A stretch of 64,000 nucleotides of DNA from Planococcus shixiaomingii (GTDB lineage: Bacteria > Bacillota > Bacilli > Bacillales_A > Planococcaceae), in the NCBI RefSeq assembly GCF_030413615.1, contig NZ_CP129236.1, forward strand, positions 2,960,001 to 3,024,000, written 5' to 3'. Both the position numbers and the translations under genes were made by a program. Positions 55,815 to 64,000 of this stretch are shown piece after piece (the first letter of the stretch is position 1; every line of letters starts with the position of its first letter). The notes beneath the pieces were generated by a model. That model was not told the DNA's origin. It searched no databases and was given only the letters and a program-made list of their open reading frames with translations.

Positions 55815-56246
55815 TTAATCATTCGACTGGGACGGTTTCGAAATATCTTCGATAGCAGCTCCGGCATTTCTGTCAGTTGGGTCTTTCACTGCAATATCTC
55901 CAAGTGAAACAACGCCCAACAGCTTGTTGCCTTCGCAAATCGGCAAACGGCGAATTTGGTTATCCGCCATTAAAGTGGCTGCATCTTCCACATCCATATC
56001 AGGCGTTCCTGTAACCAATTCAGAAGAGATGATCTGGCCGACCGGCGTGTCCAAGGTGAAGTTGGCAGCTATTCCGCGTATGACGATATCCCGATCTGTG
56101 ATGATGCCGACTAAGCTCCCGCCATTCGTATCCACTATTGGAATCGATCCGACATCCAAATTCAACATCTGTGTAGCTACTTCCTGAATTGAAGTATCCT
56201 TAGTGCAAGTTTCCACATCTGTCGTCATAATTTCTGTTACTTTCAT
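55815..56246 (-). CDS. CBS-domain-pair protein
   Basis: 143 residues from the ATG at 56246, which has AAGGAGG upstream. Two CBS motifs are clear (VTEIMTTDVETCTKD, MLNLDVGSIPIVD, GIITDRDIV; then DMDVEDAATLMADNQIRRLP). Such small CBS-only proteins bind adenine nucleotides and act as sensors. The target is unknown. It shares its strand with, but is not clearly cotranscribed with, the iclR cluster. Confidence 0.92.
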   Translation of the reverse strand: MKVTEIMTTDVETCTKDTSIQEVATQMLNLDVGSIPIVDTNGGSLVGIITDRDIVIRGIAANFTLDTPVGQIISSELVTGTPDMDVEDAATLMADNQIRRLPICEGNKLLGVVSLGDIAVKDPTDRNAGAAIEDISKPSQSND

Positions 56247-56323
56247 GATTAATTCCTCCTTATAGTTTGGGTAACTAATTGCAGTGGTTTTCATGAAATC
56301 ACACTTTTTCAGGCGACTAAATT

Positions 56324-56545
56324 TTAAGCGGTTATTCGGGTTTTTTTCTGGTCCATGCCAAGGGCGTCCGTCAATGGACAATAATGAACAATTCCTTCCG
56401 CCACTTTTTGCGCGCCCATTAGCGACACGAAAAGTTGTCCTACAGATGGCTTGTCACTCGCCATTTTGGCAATCGACCAGGCAAGCAGCGTCAAGCCGCC
56501 CGTGATACGGACCATTGAATCGATCGTTCCAATGTTTTGTTTCAT
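56324..56545 (-). CDS. Small membrane protein, DUF2892 (YgaP-like)
   Basis: 73 residues from the ATG at 56545, behind AGGAAGGGG. It shows the DUF2892 pattern: NIGTIDSMVRITGGLTLLAW, a hydrophobic stretch, and a C-terminal HYCPLTDALG with a conserved Cys. Members are small inner-membrane proteins often linked to sulfur metabolism; no specific role can be assigned here. Confidence 0.85.
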   Translation of the reverse strand: MKQNIGTIDSMVRITGGLTLLAWSIAKMASDKPSVGQLFVSLMGAQKVAEGIVHYCPLTDALGMDQKKTRITA

Positions 56546-56697
56546 CCAGTATCCCCTTCCTGTTTCCAATTCACACCTATACTGTTCCCGTTTCTTTTCG
56601 AACTAAACGATTTTTTACTTTACATTTTGATGTCAAAACCTGCTTATGGGTGCTTTTCGCAAGCGAAAAGCGAAAGAGCGGACGACCGGTAAGTCTT

Positions 56698-56837
56698 ATG
56701 CACGCTCGGAGGAAAATACGTACGCTTGGCGAATCTTACGCACGCTCAGAGGAAAATACGCACGCTTGGCAAATCTTACGCACGCTCAACAGAATTTATG
56801 CACGTTCAGGAGAAAATATGCCCGCTCGCTTCTTTCC
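56698..56837. repeat. Tandem repeat, seven units of 20 bp
   Basis: Seven exact-length 20-base units, for example ACGCACGCTCAGAGGAAAAT, start at 56698, 56718, 56738, 56758, 56778, 56798 and 56818. The A(C/T)GCACGCT core is conserved in most units, and alternating units end GGAAAAT or AAATCTT (the last unit is degenerate). It lies in the gap between the amidase and DUF2892 genes. No reading frame of note crosses it. Similar in style to the 21-bp repeat at 16480-16605. Confidence 0.9.
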
Positions 56838-56875
56838 ATAAAAAACAGCCGTCCTCGTAAAGTACGAAGACGGCT
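56838..56875 (-). terminator. Terminator of the amidase gene
   Basis: Minus strand AGCCGTCTTCGTA pairs with TACGAGGACGGCT (one G-T pair), three-base loop, then GTTTTTT. It lies 15 bases past the amidase stop and directly next to the 20-bp repeat. Confidence 0.93.
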
Positions 56876-56889
56876 TTAAGCAAACTATT

Positions 56890-58341
56890 TTATTCAAACC
56901 TAGGTGCAACACGCTTTTTCATCGCTTGCTCGTAAGAATACGCGAGCTCGATCAATCGCGGTTCGCTAAAAGCGAGTCCACTAAAGGTGACGCCTACCGG
57001 TTTGCCTGCCTTCGTGTAGCCAGCTGGCACCGTAATCGATGGATAGCCTGCTTTTGCCGGCATGGCCGCGCCGTGGTTGTTCTCAAACAACAAAGCGTCC
57101 AAACTGTAGCGAGCCATGACCACATCAATTCCTTCAGCCGCAGAAATTCGGAGATCGGTTTCGCGGTGCTCCACATAAATCGGATCTTGTGGATCGTCGC
57201 TCAAACTCAGCGACTTTTCCAGTTCGCTTTGGCCGAATTTCATTCGGACCGCCGGATCCAGCTTGTTGAATTCGATGACATCCGCCAGCGATTTCACCGG
57301 CACTTCGTCGGAAACTTTGCGCAAGTAATCATTTACCCCGCGTTTAAACTCATACCACAGCACTTCCGAATCGAATTCCTGTTTTGGAATAATCACTTCC
57401 TCAACAATTGCTCCAAGAGATTTTATTTCTTCAATCGCCTGTTCCATGACGGCGCGTTCTTCTTTACTCGTTTCGCTCAAGAAAGAAAGGTCAACGCCGA
57501 TTCGCGCTCCTTTCAAACCATCCCTTTTCAGGAAAGGCGTATAGTCAGTCAGCCCTTTGCCAACACTGGACTGGGTCGCCGGATCCCGTTCGTCCACTCC
57601 AGTCAACACACTAAGCGTGATTGCCGCATCCGCAACCGTACGCGCCATCGGACCCGCCGTATCTTGGCTTTCCGCAATCGGGATGATGCCGGTTCGGCTA
57701 ATCAAACCGACCGTCGGCTTAATGCCGACAATCGAGTTTGCGCTAGCAGGACTAAGAATCGAGCCCGACGTTTCCGTACCGATTCCGACAACCGCAAAGT
57801 TCGCTGCAATGCTCGCGCCGGTCCCTGAACTCGATCCACCGACGCTACCCGCTTCGAACGTTCCGACGCCGTATGGGTTCAACACTTGGCCGCCGAGCCC
57901 ACTATAGCCGCTCGGCACATTTTGCGTCATAAAATATGCCCACTCGCTCATGTTGACCTTGCCAAGGATGATGGCGCCCGCTTGCCGCAGCTGGGTCGCC
58001 ACAAAGGCATCTTCCAAAGCGTAATTATCCTGAAGCGCGATAGTTCCCGCTGTCGTCGGCATATTATCGGCTGTATCGATATTGTCTTTCAATAAAACCG
58101 GAATCCCGTATAACGAGCCTTGTCCATCCTGGCCGCGCATGTCATCCAGCTCCTCCGCGATTTTCAATGCATCAGGATTGATCGACAAAACCGAATTGAT
58201 CTTCGGGCCGCTTATATCATATTTTTCGATCCGGTCCAAATAGGACTGCACGAGTTCAACTGATGTTAATCGGTTATCTTTGAATGCTTGCTGGATTTCG
58301 TTGATTGTTGCTTCCTCTAGCATGAATGTGGTTTTTTCCAT
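56890..58341 (-). CDS. Amidase-signature-family hydrolase
   Basis: 483 residues with the Ser-cisSer-Lys triad: Lys in PVLLKDNID, the two Ser residues in GSVGGSSSGTGASIA and TETSGSILSPAS. The family hydrolyses amides; GatA is one member but here no gatB/C flank it. The N-terminal TSVELVQSYLDRIEKYD opening is typical. AAAAGGAG precedes the ATG. Substrate unknown. Confidence 0.9.
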   Translation of the reverse strand: MEKTTFMLEEATINEIQQAFKDNRLTSVELVQSYLDRIEKYDISGPKINSVLSINPDALKIAEELDDMRGQDGQGSLYGIPVLLKDNIDTADNMPTTAGTIALQDNYALEDAFVATQLRQAGAIILGKVNMSEWAYFMTQNVPSGYSGLGGQVLNPYGVGTFEAGSVGGSSSGTGASIAANFAVVGIGTETSGSILSPASANSIVGIKPTVGLISRTGIIPIAESQDTAGPMARTVADAAITLSVLTGVDERDPATQSSVGKGLTDYTPFLKRDGLKGARIGVDLSFLSETSKEERAVMEQAIEEIKSLGAIVEEVIIPKQEFDSEVLWYEFKRGVNDYLRKVSDEVPVKSLADVIEFNKLDPAVRMKFGQSELEKSLSLSDDPQDPIYVEHRETDLRISAAEGIDVVMARYSLDALLFENNHGAAMPAKAGYPSITVPAGYTKAGKPVGVTFSGLAFSEPRLIELAYSYEQAMKKRVAPRFE

Positions 58342-58489
58342 TTTGAACGCTCCTTTTCATGTCTGTAAAACACTAAATTTGTTCACTTTTTTAGTGTATA
58401 CCAATTAAAGAGCAATTTATCAAAATAAAAAATTAATTGTTTTGATTTAACAGTTTTCAACTACACTATATTGCATAAAATCATATTGA

Positions 58490-61400
58490 TCATTTTATTT
58501 TTTTATATATTCTATGATTGTCGTCTACCCAATATTCAATGGTATTTTTGTTTAGAATAACAGCTTTATCGATACCTTCAGTGAAATGAACGGTATCCTT
58601 CTCAAATTTCATTTCTTGTTCACCATAGAAATTAGTATGAGTATAGGGGAAAACTCGGAAATCTATGTCTATAGAATTCGTGTCACCTTCAGCCCAATCC
58701 ATAGTAATATAAGCGTCTTCTTTCCCCTTTTCTTTAGACATCCATTTCCCTATTAAAGGTTTTATCTTGGCTCTGATCGCTGCTTTCTCTTTTTCTTCTA
58801 GGGCTATCTCTTTTTGGATTTCTCTCTGTTCTTCTAATAAAGAAGTGAACTCTTCTTTTTCAATCCTCGAATATTGGTCATAGTTTGCCGTAAGTTGAAA
58901 AGAATCTGGAAGATTAGCCGAATAACTATCTCTGGAAGTATTTATTGCAGTAACTTCGTCCTCCATTTTGATATTCAAATCTTCATCAATGACATATTTT
59001 TTAGATTTCCCTTCAATAAATTCTTCTAAGATGAAGTCTTTGCCTGACTGATATATTTTAGCAGCGATAGGATCTTCTGAACTTAATCCCCAAAATCCTT
59101 TAAGGCTTTTCAGTATAGCGAAGTTAGGCTGCGCACCTTTCGCTAATAATACATCAACATATTCGTCTGTTTCTTTTCTTTGCGCATACTCAATTGGCGA
59201 AGTAAAATCTTCAGAAACGAAATTCGGGTTTATTCCGTATTCCAATAACGCTTTTAGAATGTCGATGTCTTCATCAGCTATTGACTGCAGCAAGTACCTT
59301 TGGCCATCCTGTTCATCAATTCGAGGGGCAGTATCCATTTCAAGAAGCAGTTCAGCTAACGCTACTTCTTGGTTTTCAATAGCTTGCTCCAGCATATCCG
59401 TAAATTCTTTTTTGCTTAACTGGCTATAAGGCAGCAGTATTTTTATTAGTTTATTATTCCCTTTTTCCAATGTCAGCATCAACGCATTGACTTCATTTTT
59501 ATCTTTGATTACAGGATTAGCACCGTTTTTCACCAAGAAACTAATGGCATCTTCATTTTCTTGACGTACTGCGGATAGTAATGGCGTTAGTCCTTCTTTT
59601 TCTTGGGCATTCACATCGGCCCCATATTCAATCAATAGTTCCAATATCCCTTGCTCGCCTTGTTTTACAGCATGGTGCAATGGTGTCTTTCCTGTGTTAT
59701 CCTGGCTGTTTGGATCTAGCCCTTTTTTTAAGAAGTATTCATAAAAGGGATGTGAATATTGTGTATGAGAAGCTAAATAGGACAAAATATTTTTCCCTTC
59801 CTTATCATGGGAATCGATTTTCGCACCAGCAGCTAATAGCATATCGAAAATTCCAAAAGAGGCCCCATCATCAATTGCATGGAATAAGATCGTCTTACCA
59901 TCAATGAGTTCGTTTGGGTTTCCATTCATGTCTAATATACTTTGCAATGTTATTAAATCATTGTTGGCTACAGCATTCATCATTGTAATACCTTCGACTT
60001 TATAGCCAGCTACATTTGAATAATCCTTTAATAGCAATAATACGATAGGATAATATTCTTCATTGTCCTCTTTAGCATTTATATACCCAAGTGAATCAAA
60101 CCCCTTGTTCCCGCCGCGATAAACCTCCGCTTTATATTGGAGCATTAGTTTTACTAATTCTTCGTTTTTCGAATCGATTGCATAAAAAACTAAAGGGACA
60201 TTATCGATGATACGGTTCGGATCTGCCCCATTCTCCAACAACTCACGGCTGACTTGCAGATTATTTTCTTTCAAACTGTATTTAAGTAAATTAACAGAAG
60301 CTTCATTTTCGAAATTTGGATCTGCGCCGTAGGAGAGTAGCTGCTTGATGTAACTGAATGGCTCTTCTTCCGTAATTGCCCTGCTTAGCACAGTAGTTCT
60401 GTCAGCAAGAATCAGATTAGCATCAGCCCCGATTGCTAACATTTGCAGCACTCTTTCTTTGTCTTTTCTAAGGATTGCGGCTTTTAGGGCGAAGTAGTCC
60501 AAATTAGTGTCAATTTTTTTATTTTCAATGTAGGAGAAATAACCGTTATCTACTCCCGGCAAAAGCTTTCCACTACTGGCAAATGAAACACTATTGGCAC
60601 TTAAGAAAAACACCATCGTAAATAGAGCTACATACCTCACTTTGAAAACTTTATACCTCATCGACATTTCTTTATAGCTATACGAAGCTTTAAAAATTAA
60701 GCGAAGTTTTGAGGAAGCAATTAAACTCCTGCGCTTCAAGTATTTAGAGATTGGGTCCTCCTTCACATGACAATCTCTCAATATTGATTCATAAACCAAA
60801 GACAACGCAACAAAGTCTATCTTCTTCACCGCTATTGCAATTCTTTGTTTTCTGGAAGTAAAACCTTTATAAATTTCAAATACTTTTGCCAGTTGAACCG
60901 AAACCGAAGTATTTTCAAAATCCAAAGTATGATAATGGAAAAAGTCTTCAAAAATCCGTCTTCCTGACTTTTGGTTTTTATTCACACACACAAAAATCAT
61001 TCTGGCAACGACTGTGCTAATACTGGGAACTTTAATATTCCCGAATCCTTGAACACCTTCTATTTGCAAGGAAAGTTTTTTTAACAAAATACCGTATTGC
61101 CTTACCGCTTCTATATATTCTTTTTTCTCCCAGTACTCCCGTTCAATTACAGCAATCATATATGCGTATTTGATTTTCAATAGTTGATCTTTTAATTTAA
61201 TACCATCAATTAATACTTCCCCTACTGGTTCGTTCATTTTAATGTACTGCTGCATTTTCTGCAAAAGATGCTCACCGAAAGTATACTTATTTTCATCAAA
61301 TGCCACTTCTAATACCTGAACATTTTCGGTGAACCAATTTATCACTTTTTCCTTTTCCGATTCCTGAACTCCAATTTCCAATTCATATGTATCGGGATTG

Positions 61401-62221
61401 ATATCAGTGATTTCATAACCGAATGTATTCAAGTCATCATTTACTCTTTTAATATATACACCATATAAAGTGAAATAAATTGCTGAATAACCTTTTTCCA
61501 AATCGTTAAGCAACGATTGGAAGACAGTTAAAACTTCTTCCCAGCTTTTATCTACTTCTGCCCACGATGCCTGAATTACTTCTTCATCGCTAGTGAGTGC
61601 TCCGGAAATTTTTCTTCCGACTATTCCACCGAAGGGACCGGCTACTAATGTACCCACTATACCTACTCCAAAATTGAATAATTGTTTTCCTCCTCGTTCG
61701 GCAGCAATGTCTTTCAATTTTTTGAAATGGCCTTTAATCACTCTTCCATGATTTTCTAATGCAAACATCAATCGATTAGTTTTTCCAAACAAGCTTTCCT
61801 GAAAGGCCTTAAAGACGACAGTATCTGCTCGATAACGCTTAAAAATTGTTGGAAATGTATTGGACTTTGAAGCATTACTATAAAACTCTAAGTAAGAATC
61901 CCAAACTCTTTGAACGGTTAAAACATTATTAAGCTCTTTTATAAATTTATGCGGCAAAATCAGCTCAACACATTCGTTGACAAACTTTTTACGTTCTTCG
62001 GAAGTTAAATTTTTCTCGCCTAACCGGCTATTTAGGTGAAAGACTTTATTGAAAATTTCTTGATCAAACGCTTTTTCAATAATACCAATTTCTTCTTTAG
62101 CCTGTTTATCAACGATTCGAAGAAGATGCTGAAATAATTCATCGTTTGTTCCTCTTTTTAGTTCTTGTTTTAACTGATCGACTTGTTTAATTAATGAGTT
62201 AGCATATGTAGTTTCTTTCAT
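58490..62221 (-). CDS. 1243-residue ankyrin-repeat protein with internal signal-peptide-like segment
   Basis: 1243 residues from the ATG at 62221, behind AAGAGG; a GTG at 62236 would lie in the ribosome site. Order: a helical, charged N-terminal region (1-520) with a glycine-zipper stretch (VGIVGTLVAGPFGGIVGRKI) near 190; a basic-hydrophobic segment at about 523-548 (RYKVFKVRYVALFTMVFFLS, ending VSFASS) that looks like a signal peptide or anchor; about ten ankyrin repeats (about 570-1040; NGADPN, GKTPLHHAV, YGADVNAQ); and a C-terminal acidic domain. If the internal segment inserts, the ankyrins lie outside the cytoplasm. I do not recognise the protein as a whole; it may be a fusion. It is 34 bases downstream of the acidic 201-residue gene. 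Confidence 0.8.
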   Translation of the reverse strand: MKETTYANSLIKQVDQLKQELKRGTNDELFQHLLRIVDKQAKEEIGIIEKAFDQEIFNKVFHLNSRLGEKNLTSEERKKFVNECVELILPHKFIKELNNVLTVQRVWDSYLEFYSNASKSNTFPTIFKRYRADTVVFKAFQESLFGKTNRLMFALENHGRVIKGHFKKLKDIAAERGGKQLFNFGVGIVGTLVAGPFGGIVGRKISGALTSDEEVIQASWAEVDKSWEEVLTVFQSLLNDLEKGYSAIYFTLYGVYIKRVNDDLNTFGYEITDINPDTYELEIGVQESEKEKVINWFTENVQVLEVAFDENKYTFGEHLLQKMQQYIKMNEPVGEVLIDGIKLKDQLLKIKYAYMIAVIEREYWEKKEYIEAVRQYGILLKKLSLQIEGVQGFGNIKVPSISTVVARMIFVCVNKNQKSGRRIFEDFFHYHTLDFENTSVSVQLAKVFEIYKGFTSRKQRIAIAVKKIDFVALSLVYESILRDCHVKEDPISKYLKRRSLIASSKLRLIFKASYSYKEMSMRYKVFKVRYVALFTMVFFLSANSVSFASSGKLLPGVDNGYFSYIENKKIDTNLDYFALKAAILRKDKERVLQMLAIGADANLILADRTTVLSRAITEEEPFSYIKQLLSYGADPNFENEASVNLLKYSLKENNLQVSRELLENGADPNRIIDNVPLVFYAIDSKNEELVKLMLQYKAEVYRGGNKGFDSLGYINAKEDNEEYYPIVLLLLKDYSNVAGYKVEGITMMNAVANNDLITLQSILDMNGNPNELIDGKTILFHAIDDGASFGIFDMLLAAGAKIDSHDKEGKNILSYLASHTQYSHPFYEYFLKKGLDPNSQDNTGKTPLHHAVKQGEQGILELLIEYGADVNAQEKEGLTPLLSAVRQENEDAISFLVKNGANPVIKDKNEVNALMLTLEKGNNKLIKILLPYSQLSKKEFTDMLEQAIENQEVALAELLLEMDTAPRIDEQDGQRYLLQSIADEDIDILKALLEYGINPNFVSEDFTSPIEYAQRKETDEYVDVLLAKGAQPNFAILKSLKGFWGLSSEDPIAAKIYQSGKDFILEEFIEGKSKKYVIDEDLNIKMEDEVTAINTSRDSYSANLPDSFQLTANYDQYSRIEKEEFTSLLEEQREIQKEIALEEKEKAAIRAKIKPLIGKWMSKEKGKEDAYITMDWAEGDTNSIDIDFRVFPYTHTNFYGEQEMKFEKDTVHFTEGIDKAVILNKNTIEYWVDDNHRIYKKIK

Positions 62222-62255
62222 GTTCGTCCTCTTCACTTTTCTTAAATTATGACTA

Positions 62256-62861
62256 TTAAAGCCAATCGAAAATACCTAAACCTTCACTGATATAATCCAA
62301 ATCCATATCAACAATTAAATCTCCTCCGGTAAAGACTGCTGCTGCATCTCCAGCTCCCTGAAATACCACTTGACTTGCATAGCTTGTCAACTCTGGGAGA
62401 GATGAGGGGTCTAAATTGCCTCCACTGAAATTATATTGAACTCCTTGTGCAACAGGCCCTGATACTCCCAACAATTCCATGTCGCTTGAGTAGTAGGCAG
62501 TTTCACCTGTCGGGCTTTCAAACGTCATACTTTCAAGTTGAAAGTCGTTTGTATATAACAGTTCTCCCCCAGCTGCACTATCTGCTGTAAAAGCTTGCTG
62601 ATTATAACTAGCATTCATAATCGACTCTCCCCCTAGGGGTGATGCTGCAGACAGTCCTTGTATGTTCATGTGCTGATCACTAATCGTTATGCCACCCATT
62701 AAATTATTAGATACATATCCAATTGCATTTTGATTTGCATCCAACAGAAGCAACTGATCTCCCGCCCAAGGCATTACAATTGTTCCATCCATACTTATCC
62801 CGTTTGTTTTTAATACATTAGCAATTGATTGTTGCGGGTATACACTATTTAAAAAATCCAT
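62256..62861 (-). CDS. Unrecognised highly acidic 201-residue protein
   Basis: 201 residues from an ATG behind AGGAGG. Composition is extreme: 23 Asp/Glu, one Lys, no Arg and no Cys. It is rich in Gly, Ser, Asn and hydrophobic residues, with beta-like repeats (MNIQGLSAASPLGGESIM, ESMTFESPTGETAYYSS, NFSGGNLDPSSLPELTS) and an acidic hydrophobic end (IVDMDLDY, LGIFDWL). No signal peptide, membrane helix or known domain was seen. It is the first gene of a pair with the ankyrin protein. Function unknown. Confidence 0.75.
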   Translation of the reverse strand: MDFLNSVYPQQSIANVLKTNGISMDGTIVMPWAGDQLLLLDANQNAIGYVSNNLMGGITISDQHMNIQGLSAASPLGGESIMNASYNQQAFTADSAAGGELLYTNDFQLESMTFESPTGETAYYSSDMELLGVSGPVAQGVQYNFSGGNLDPSSLPELTSYASQVVFQGAGDAAAVFTGGDLIVDMDLDYISEGLGIFDWL

Positions 62862-63113
62862 TTAAATCCTCCTGTATTCTCTTGCCTTATTTATTATAAA
62901 ATCCATTTAACAAGTACTTTGTAACTATAAGTATTATACCGTTTTTACCACAAAAAATAATAGACTAAAGTATTTATTATTTAGAAAATAATGTAATTTT
63001 TTCAGTCTTTTAAAACGCTGAAGCAAAAGCCATTACTAGAGTATCAAAAGCACGGTGTAAAAATCGGAGCAAGGCAGCTAATATGAAGCAATTTTTAAAA
63101 GGACTTTTAAGCA
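62862..63113. other. Intergenic stretch upstream of the acidic protein gene
   Basis: AT-rich. It contains a good -10-like TATAAT on the minus strand (about 62939) but no matching -35, and no gene. It likely holds the promoter of the 62256-62861 gene. Confidence 0.5.
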
Positions 63114-63150
63114 TAAAAAAATCCCCAAATGACTCTAGTCATTTGGGGAT
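63114..63150 (-). terminator. Terminator of the VOC-family gene
   Basis: A 14-bp perfect stem (ATCCCCAAATGACT with AGTCATTTGGGGAT), two-base loop as drawn, and TTTTTT on the minus strand. Confidence 0.93.
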
Positions 63151-63166
63151 CTAGGAACTTATAATT

Positions 63167-63592
63167 TCATCTCACTGAACCATCATCATAACTAAACTGC
63201 CACTCCACACCAAACTTATCCTCGACAACACCATAAGCCGGGCTGAAGAAGGTTTTCTGGAAATCCATAATCACTCTGCCGCCCTTACTTAATGCGGCAA
63301 ACTCTTTATGCAATCTGTCCAAGTCATCTGAAGTAATGGCCAACGTGACGTTCTTGCCAAAGACAACAGGCGATTGCGGGAACGCATCCGAGAACAGGAC
63401 CGGCGTGCCATGGATGTTCAAATGAGCATGCATGACCAGATCTTTCATTTCCGGTGGAATGGTGCTTCCTTCTTCAGGCGGAACTTGCCCAAACGTCATC
63501 GGCTCCGGTCCAGGCAGCCTAAAAACATCGGCATAATACTCAATCGCTTCGCGGCAATTTCCATTGAACGTTAAATACGGATTTACAGGCAT
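63167..63592 (-). CDS. VOC-superfamily protein (PhnB/glyoxalase-like)
   Basis: 141 residues of the PhnB-like group (PVNPYLTFNGNCREAIEYYA, HAHLNIHGTPVLFSDAFP, ITSDDLDRLHKEF, YGVVEDKFGVEWQFSY). The family fold binds metals or small ligands in glyoxalase, dioxygenase and resistance proteins; the substrate cannot be told from sequence. It is a single gene with its own terminator. Confidence 0.9.
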   Translation of the reverse strand: MPVNPYLTFNGNCREAIEYYADVFRLPGPEPMTFGQVPPEEGSTIPPEMKDLVMHAHLNIHGTPVLFSDAFPQSPVVFGKNVTLAITSDDLDRLHKEFAALSKGGRVIMDFQKTFFSPAYGVVEDKFGVEWQFSYDDGSVR

Positions 63593-63709
63593 AAAGCAGC
63601 TCCTCTCACATTTCTTCTATTTTTACTAAGTTATCTAATTGTTATATGCCCGCTTTTTAATAGAGTAAACTAGCTTTTCCCATCCCCTCCACTATACGGA
63701 TTTTTAAAA

Positions 63710-63756
63710 TGAATAAACGCTGTCCAAGGAATCAAATGATTCCTTGGACAGCGTTT
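63710..63756 (-). terminator. Terminator of the pepF gene
   Basis: A 19-bp perfect stem (AAACGCTGTCCAAGGAATC with GATTCCTTGGACAGCGTTT) and a four-base AAAT/ATTT loop, then TTCATTTT on the minus strand, just past the stop codon. It has the inner ATC-nAnT-GAT motif seen in two other hairpins. Confidence 0.9.
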
Positions 63757-63768
63757 CAAGATGCATTC

Positions 63769-64000
63769 TTACCCTACCGCCACTTCCGTCAATGCCAAAA
63801 ACTCCTCCACATCTTTCACACACAGTGCAACCGCGTCTTCCCAGAAGCCCGCTTGTTCAAGATCGACGCCTAAGTGTTTCTGGGCTAATTGCTCAACCGT
63901 CATGCGCCCGGTGTCCCGCAGCAAGGCGTTATATGATTCTTCAAAACCGCCTTCCGCTTCAAGAGCTTTGGCATATATTCCTTGGCTGAACAAATAGCCG
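63769..64000 (-). CDS. pepF: Oligoendopeptidase F family (M3) peptidase, C-terminal fragment
   Basis: Only the last ~77 residues are visible; the gene continues past the right edge. The frame reads GYLFSQGIYAKAL at the edge and then LLRDTGRMTVEQLAQKHLGV, LEQAGFWEDAV, matching the C-terminal helices of PepF (the GYLFxxGLYA and TGxMTxE regions). PepF is a cytoplasmic zinc oligopeptidase. The HExxH site lies outside the window. Confidence 0.8.
   Translation of the reverse strand, partial: GYLFSQGIYAKALEAEGGFEESYNALLRDTGRMTVEQLAQKHLGVDLEQAGFWEDAVALCVKDVEEFLALTEVAVG

Follow-up and report, generated by a model that had tools for sequence, protein, structure and literature searches.

We analysed a window of 64,000 nucleotides from Planococcus shixiaomingii (contig NZ_CP129236.1, positions 2,960,001 to 3,024,000), in which two adjacent minus-strand genes encode a small, very acidic protein and a large protein with ankyrin repeats. 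The helical N-terminal domain of the large protein (N-domain) was detected in ten genomes, and in all ten a small acidic open reading frame (ORF) was located directly upstream of the large gene on the same strand. Moreover, the pairwise divergence of the small proteins was correlated with that of the N-domains (Mantel r 0.97, 0/5000 permutations; ten pairs, with close kin driving much of the signal). Because of this adjacency and the correlated divergence, the two-gene system proposed in an earlier reading of the DNA alone (the sequence-only reading) is strongly supported. The features of the pair, in window coordinates, are as follows.

62256..62861, minus strand: small acidic gene (ORF of 201 aa, net charge -22, one Lys, no Arg)
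62448..62759, minus strand: five 21-residue repeats, beta-flower-like, small protein residues ~35-139 (lag-21 self-similarity)
62259..62312, minus strand: acidic-hydrophobic C-terminal tail, last 18 residues of the small protein (composition of the small proteins)
62222..62255, minus strand: 34-base intergenic gap with a ribosome-site-like stretch (sequence reading)
58490..62221, minus strand: large gene, 1243 aa (ORF from ATG)
60647..62221, minus strand: helical N-domain, residues 1-525, constant part of the family (profile matches in ten genomes)
61616..61672, minus strand: glycine-rich hydrophobic segment flanked by two long helices, residues 184-202 (hydropathy; low-confidence model)
60575..60631, minus strand: predicted transmembrane or signal-like helix, residues 531-549 (hydropathy 1.65, basic N-terminal side)
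59120..60505, minus strand: ankyrin-repeat region, residues ~573-1034 (Pfam and repeat pattern)
58493..59116, minus strand: acidic C-terminal region without a recognised family, residues ~1036-1243 (library scan, alignment)
63119..63152, minus strand: terminator-like hairpin that separates the pair from VOC (hairpin scan)

Both ORFs were found where the sequence-only reading had placed them, 34 bases apart; from an upstream GTG the large ORF would encode 1248 aa. The purine-rich, ribosome-site-like stretches before both start codons also agree with that reading, as do the strong acidity of the small protein and the absence of arginine from it.

Relatives, pairing and spread

The two window proteins were searched in 150 relative genomes, six of which were listed for each protein, the own genome included. 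Full-length adjacent matches to both genes were obtained in Planomicrobium stackebrandtii (G020, locus L013) and Planococcus sp. CPCC 101016 (G041, L014), with identities of 57% for the small protein and 41% for the N-domain. The more distant pairs in G005 (L016) and G006 (L017) came from reading the weaker matches. After the wider loci had been read, the weaker matches retained were G005:C33 and G006, which are pairs, and G110, which is a dynamin operon (L019). The matches in G005:C35 and G007, which fell on a BNR-repeat-like protein, were dropped, and so was that in G008 (E 4.4e-4; a glycosyl hydrolase-like enzyme that the N-domain profile did not recover).

Among the 261 genomes of the family, the N-domain profile matched five, which belong to a single genus. 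In the phylum set (398 genomes, E <= 0.01) there were three matches, namely the own genome, G658 (L029; E 2.2e-26) and a chance match in G670 (E 0.008), which lies inside an isopropylmalate-dehydrogenase-like gene. The class of G658 gave four of 154 genomes (G658, G735 or L038, G828 or L039, and G829 or L040), the Bacilli set two of 299 (the own genome and G1014, L041), and the family of G1014 only G1014 itself among 91. The N-domain is therefore rare and patchy, with a total of ten genomes in one phylum and two classes, and it is probably old, since it is spread over two classes. These results also show that the pair is neither without recognised relatives, as the sequence-only reading had it, nor adjacent in this strain only.

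The small partners in G005, G006, G735, G658, G828 and G829 were identified from their position, their charge and their tail; the sequence match to the window small protein was weak or nil in the three that were compared (E 0.001 in G006, 1.6 in G735 and 9.9 in G658). The small protein of L041, on the other hand, gave a gap-free alignment of 132 residues with that of the window (identity 23%, E 5e-17). The two genes are separated by 9-34 bases in seven genomes, by 1 base in L017, by 1 base from the ATG in L016, and by 75 bases from the ORF start at 6288 in L038; the computed gaps of -5 (L016) and 225 (L038) reflect start points chosen for domain alignment. Between L013 and L014, dN and dS were 0.023 and 0.103 for the small gene and 0.026 and 0.090 for the large gene, giving dN/dS of ~0.22 and ~0.29, respectively, and both genes look constrained in this comparison.

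The large protein: a constant N-domain and exchangeable ends

What stays constant in the large protein, by its profile matches, is the predicted helical N-domain of ~520 residues. Eight residues (L87, Y110, R129, Y130, L155, W227, G254 and R407) are conserved across the ten N-domains. A structural model built on three alignment rows (pLDDT 45) was all-helical, with helices at 124-176, 179-199 and 208-266, which suggests a layout of long helix, hydrophobic helix and long helix. A Kyte-Doolittle scan (threshold 1.4) of the window protein gave a glycine-rich segment at 184-202, a second segment at 531-549 and a borderline one at 395-413 (1.46), the first two being the glycine zipper and internal hydrophobic segment noted originally. 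The glycine-rich segment occurs at the equivalent place in the window, L013, L014, L016, L017, L038 and L041.

A membrane helix after the N-domain was predicted in nine of the ten large proteins. In the window protein, five Lys or Arg residues lie within 15 residues before the helix and one after it; the count before exceeded that after in 9/9 proteins (3-5 against 0-2), although the latter is trivially 0 in L029, L039 and L040, which end at the helix. This bias would place the N-domain in the cytosol and the following module outside. The membrane anchoring of the large protein proposed in the sequence-only reading fits nine of the ten proteins and does not fit that of G1014, which has ankyrin repeats and no such helix.

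The ends of the large protein differ among the genomes. Ankyrin repeats are found in four of ten (after the membrane helix in the window, L013 and L014; without it in L041), SH3b domains in two (L016 and L017, PF08239 above cut-off, after the helix), and in L029, L038, L039 and L040 the C-terminus is a bare membrane helix. In the window, the repeats matched Ank_2 in Pfam with E 6.9e-42; a simple pattern counted eight and ~12 were counted by eye, where about ten had been claimed. The ankyrin region, however, does not define the family, as the sequence-only reading had implied, whereas the N-domain is constant. In the acidic C-terminal region, 61 of 204 aligned residues are identical between the window and L013.

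Scans of the window large protein with Pfam, NCBIfam, PHROGs and PADLOC gave ankyrin-type or weak sub-threshold matches only, and no library model was reached above cut-off by the N-domain. The coverage was Pfam for ten N-domains and six small proteins, PADLOC for the ten N-domains, NCBIfam for 11 small proteins, and PHROGs for the two window proteins only. Matches to C19orf12 in three of ten N-domains (best E 0.013) and to pdsO (E 0.016, NCBIfam) were rejected as chance or composition. In a PDB sequence search, the sole N-domain match below E 0.01 was a designed coiled coil (5.1e-6). A fold search with the N-domain model returned no match at E <= 0.001; the long-helix proteins it listed (BAR domains, spectrin and pore-formers) were not significant and were not used as evidence. 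The Dot/Icm ankyrin effectors (AnkH and others in NCBIfam) resemble the window large protein by ankyrin repeats alone, and its score was 105 bits against a curated cut-off of 600.

The small acidic protein and the dynamin operons

The small protein of the window is repetitive, with a period-21 self-similarity that exceeded 300/300 shuffles and repeat units that begin, by eye, at G34, G56, G77, G98 and G119. Among 11 small proteins, lag 21 came out best in seven and shared first place in L013; it was individually significant (p below 0.05) in five of the 11, namely the window, L014, L041 and two dynamin-linked proteins described below, and was not significant in L013, L016, L017, L029 and L039. 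In L038 the significant lag was 19.

Across the ten genomes the small proteins have 102-220 aa and net charges of -7 to -31, and the lack of arginine seen in the window is not a constant trait. The last 25 residues contain 4-6 Asp or Glu in 10/10, 12-15 hydrophobic residues, and no Lys or Arg in 9/10. The 102-aa proteins of G658, G828 and G829 retain a similar start, a single GG repeat and a similar tail; since the tail persists even in these, it looks like the essential part. The N-terminal hydropathy is below 1.3 in 9/10 and reaches 2.0 in L038, so those nine should be cytosolic, and the secreted partner considered in the sequence-only reading is unlikely.

In sequence, the small protein resembles a five-fold beta-flower (PF21785). 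This fold was named in 2023, and the passages on it in that paper state no function; they describe five-fold beta-flowers as carrying [DNEQ]xxG at their hairpin tips (Durairaj et al., 2023, PMC10584680). The window protein shares with them five 21-residue repeats and a hydrophobic C-terminal element, and it may share [DNEQ]xxG, which is in phase in three of the five repeats. It differs in being strongly acidic, in being encoded beside a large helical protein and in having no Pfam match, and the 102-aa members of its family hold one GG repeat only. The in-phase motifs (modulo 21) of the window protein are at 45, 66 and 129, and those at 53, 144, 168 and 193 are out of phase; in L041 three are in phase and others out of phase, both counts being without shuffle control. 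An AlphaFold2 model of the window protein, in which a beta-flower would appear as a closed shallow beta-barrel, contained strand pairs, but at a pLDDT of 35.

The window small protein matched no model of Pfam, NCBIfam, PHROGs or PADLOC, so that it was not recognised as a fragment of a known family, although it is beta-flower-like; PF21785 itself did not match it even at E <= 10, and the curated cut-off of PF21785 was exceeded in 0/10 genomes. The best score against that model was that of a relative from another family (L019; 19.2 bits, cut-off 38). The small family had zero matches in a PDB sequence search, and NlpE matches in two of 11 small proteins (best E 0.0057) were attributed to chance or composition. 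A hidden Markov model (HMM) of the repeat unit, built from the two dynamin-linked proteins, was scored against 500 shuffles: its score was reached by 2 shuffles for the window, 0 for L017, 0 for L038 and 21 for L041, and by 194-353 for L013, L014, L016 and L029. It thus supports four of eight small proteins, since shuffles often reach the score in the other four.

In G110, the weakly matching sequence (E 1.8e-4) is that of a GG-repeat protein whose gene lies within an operon for three dynamin-like GTPases (L019:456-8354; Dynamin_N E 2e-29, 1.5e-28 and 1.2e-18). A second such operon was found in G544 (L030:4164-12083), where the third GTPase is 30% identical to that of L019 and the other two were named by eye. 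In both operons, two GTPases have 575-619 aa and one has 1261-1301 aa, and the GG-repeat protein, which ends in FPPL(V/I), is encoded between the second and the third. A profile of the L019 and L030 small proteins, containing no window sequence, matched only G110 and the window small gene (E 1.5e-5) among 131 Bacilli genomes, a set that may not include the other pair-bearing Bacilli genomes. This match would therefore link small proteins of this kind to membrane-remodelling machines. The dynamin-linked proteins share with the window protein the period of 21 and the look of the repeats (hhalign probability 71), and differ from it in their GTPase partners and in a tail of the FPPL type, which is not acidic. 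The large protein, for its part, recalls bacterial dynamin-like proteins in that its helical region contains a glycine-rich hydrophobic segment; it differs in having no GTPase domain and no significant profile match, and Dynamin_N matched neither the window large protein nor any of the ten N-domains. Literature searches found no paper linking a bacterial dynamin with a beta-flower and none on a two-gene ankyrin-repeat anti-phage system in Bacillus; the papers found for ankyrin repeat and Planococcus were unrelated by title.

Genomic setting, rival explanations and proposed mechanism

The pair is flanked by an amidase (PF01425) and a glyoxalase-type VOC protein (PF06983, PF00903), and Pfam thereby confirms both neighbours named in the sequence-only reading. 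Four terminator-like hairpins were found in 58300-63200 against a shuffle mean of 2.5, and the one at 63152-63119 lies between the pair and the VOC gene upstream of it. Rfam gave zero matches in 56000-64000 at the gathering threshold. The amidase was matched at E <= 1e-80 in 46/46 Planococcus genomes, in some by a distant paralogue only; a second copy in the window genome (G000:C1:1064449-1065864) carries one in-frame stop.

The flanks of the amidase were compared in ten Planococcus genomes (L047-L056), with L016 as an eleventh. The window has the order amidase, pair, VOC and pepF, while L047, L048 and L049, the closest by amidase identity, have an MscS channel and an ABC ATPase between amidase and pepF (Pfam-checked in L047 only), with an extra ORF in L048 and L049. 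By sequence look, a channel gene beside the amidase with pepF beyond was seen in seven of ten (L047-L051, L053 and L054), and L052, L055 and L056 depart from this order. The pair of G005, which is of the SH3b version, is ordered and oriented as in the window and is ~3 kb away from the amidase. Judged from these gene orders, the site of the pair is variable, whether by transfer or by loss. The position in L029 and L039 looks conserved, unlike the variable Planococcus site.

Several neighbouring genes were also recorded. In G041, the second gene upstream of the amidase orthologue (L056:2345-6112) encodes a MkoA-like protein (PADLOC E 4.7e-115); it is on the flank that carries the pair in the window. 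Just downstream of the pair in G735 (L038:8262-11524), the candidate defence family PDC-S68 is split over two overlapping frames, with a McrBC-type gene (PF10117) beyond it. In G006, the genes of two zinc-ribbon membrane proteins in tandem (by eye; L017:4881-7777) come directly before the pair, and zinc-ribbon genes are also upstream of it in L016 (6921-8140).

We tentatively propose, as a possible reading, that the pair forms a complex of an adaptor and a membrane-tethered effector with a sensing module. The two genes are neighbours even in distantly related bacteria, their end domains are interchangeable, and they seem to encode one machine. Both products would form one complex on the cytosolic side of the cell membrane, where the small protein, a cytosolic five-fold beta-flower-like adaptor, would dock on the N-domain through its acidic-hydrophobic tail. 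The N-domain would be a membrane-active effector (long helix, glycine-rich hydrophobic hairpin, long helix) whose activity is held back by the anchor or by the small protein. A cue would be sensed by the C-terminal module, the exchangeable part, which is outside the cell where a membrane helix precedes it, and the hairpin would then enter or remodel the membrane. The likeliest biological setting is a response to envelope insult, including phage or competitor attack; a constant effector with a swapped sensor and a small partner present throughout the set found is a pattern typical of conflict and stress systems.

Several observations weigh against this proposal. The glycine-rich segment falls under the hydropathy threshold in G658, G828 and G829, and the membrane helix of L014 scores 1.53, below the cut-off of 1.6 usual for such scans. 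The ankyrin module of G1014 should be cytosolic, because no membrane helix is present there, and G658, G828, G829 and G735 have no sensor module. A profile comparison of the N-domain with the third dynamin gave a 128-column alignment from the glycine stretch with a probability of 12, and the idea that the N-domain is a dynamin stalk without GTPase was considered and not shown by it. Finally, in G658 and G828 a MazG-like gene directly follows the pair, with ffh close by in G658 (by eye), so that a housekeeping role fits too.

Three other explanations were weighed against the same evidence. The large protein may be a membrane-damaging toxin acting in its own cell (abortively), with the small acidic protein as antitoxin or folding partner. 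The order of small then large gene, the co-inheritance and the patchy spread (5/261 family genomes) agree with this, and the N-domain layout, in a low-confidence model only, recalls the long helix, hydrophobic helix and long helix of ClyA/YaxAB/Smh-type pore-formers. However, the window large protein has no hydrophobic N-terminus and carries a long C-terminal module, long ankyrin and SH3b modules being unusual for toxins of this type; no toxin family was matched by Pfam or PADLOC on ten N-domains or by NCBIfam and Pfam on the window large protein, and the fold search was empty at its threshold. We consider this reading rather doubtful. Anti-phage defence, in which the module senses infection and the pair kills or arrests the cell, appears doubtful to the same degree. 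It is favoured by the variable interval between amidase and pepF, by the MkoA-like gene in G041 and by the PDC-S68 and McrBC-type genes adjoining the pair in G735. Against it, the window proteins matched PADLOC models by ankyrin only and the best match of the ten N-domains had E 0.027, while tblastn of the window N-domain and small protein found no match in 50,697 phage and 72,556 plasmid records. Viral contigs contained no relative of the N-domain profile or of the L041 and L019 small proteins. Eight pair neighbours searched against PADLOC (a set that left out the window, L013, L014, L029, L039 and L040) gave two of five in L038, both pieces of PDC-S68, none of one in L041 and in L017, and one weak match in L016 (E 0.0031), and the neighbours in G658 and G828 resemble housekeeping genes.

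An envelope scaffold or stress sensor, in which the large protein ties the membrane to the cell wall or surface polymers and the small protein is a stabilising subunit, is in our judgement unlikely. SH3b, found in L016 and L017, is a wall-associated domain, an apparent polysaccharide gene cluster (named by eye) lies ~4-11 kb from the pair in P. shixiaomingii, and SLH-like surface proteins (by eye) are encoded upstream of the pair, directly in L014 and ~5 kb off in L013. This role is at odds with the patchy presence and with the four of ten large proteins that have no external module, and it leaves the glycine-rich segment unaccounted for.

The gene pair and the N-domain family are outside the papers and libraries searched; being new in this sense, they do not by themselves imply a new mode of action. 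The distance from known systems is high, and the mechanism is weakly constrained. The two genes are conserved as a couple in which the core is constant and the ends can be exchanged, and the beta-flower fold gains two concrete partner contexts, the helical large protein and the dynamin-like GTPases. A bolder form of our proposal, which we regard as quite improbable, is a machine that remodels or breaks membranes without a GTPase, under the control of an acidic beta-flower adaptor, aimed by an interchangeable sensor and akin in layout to the system of an adaptor and three dynamins. If this were true, beta-flower proteins would serve bacteria quite generally as adaptors for membrane-active machines.

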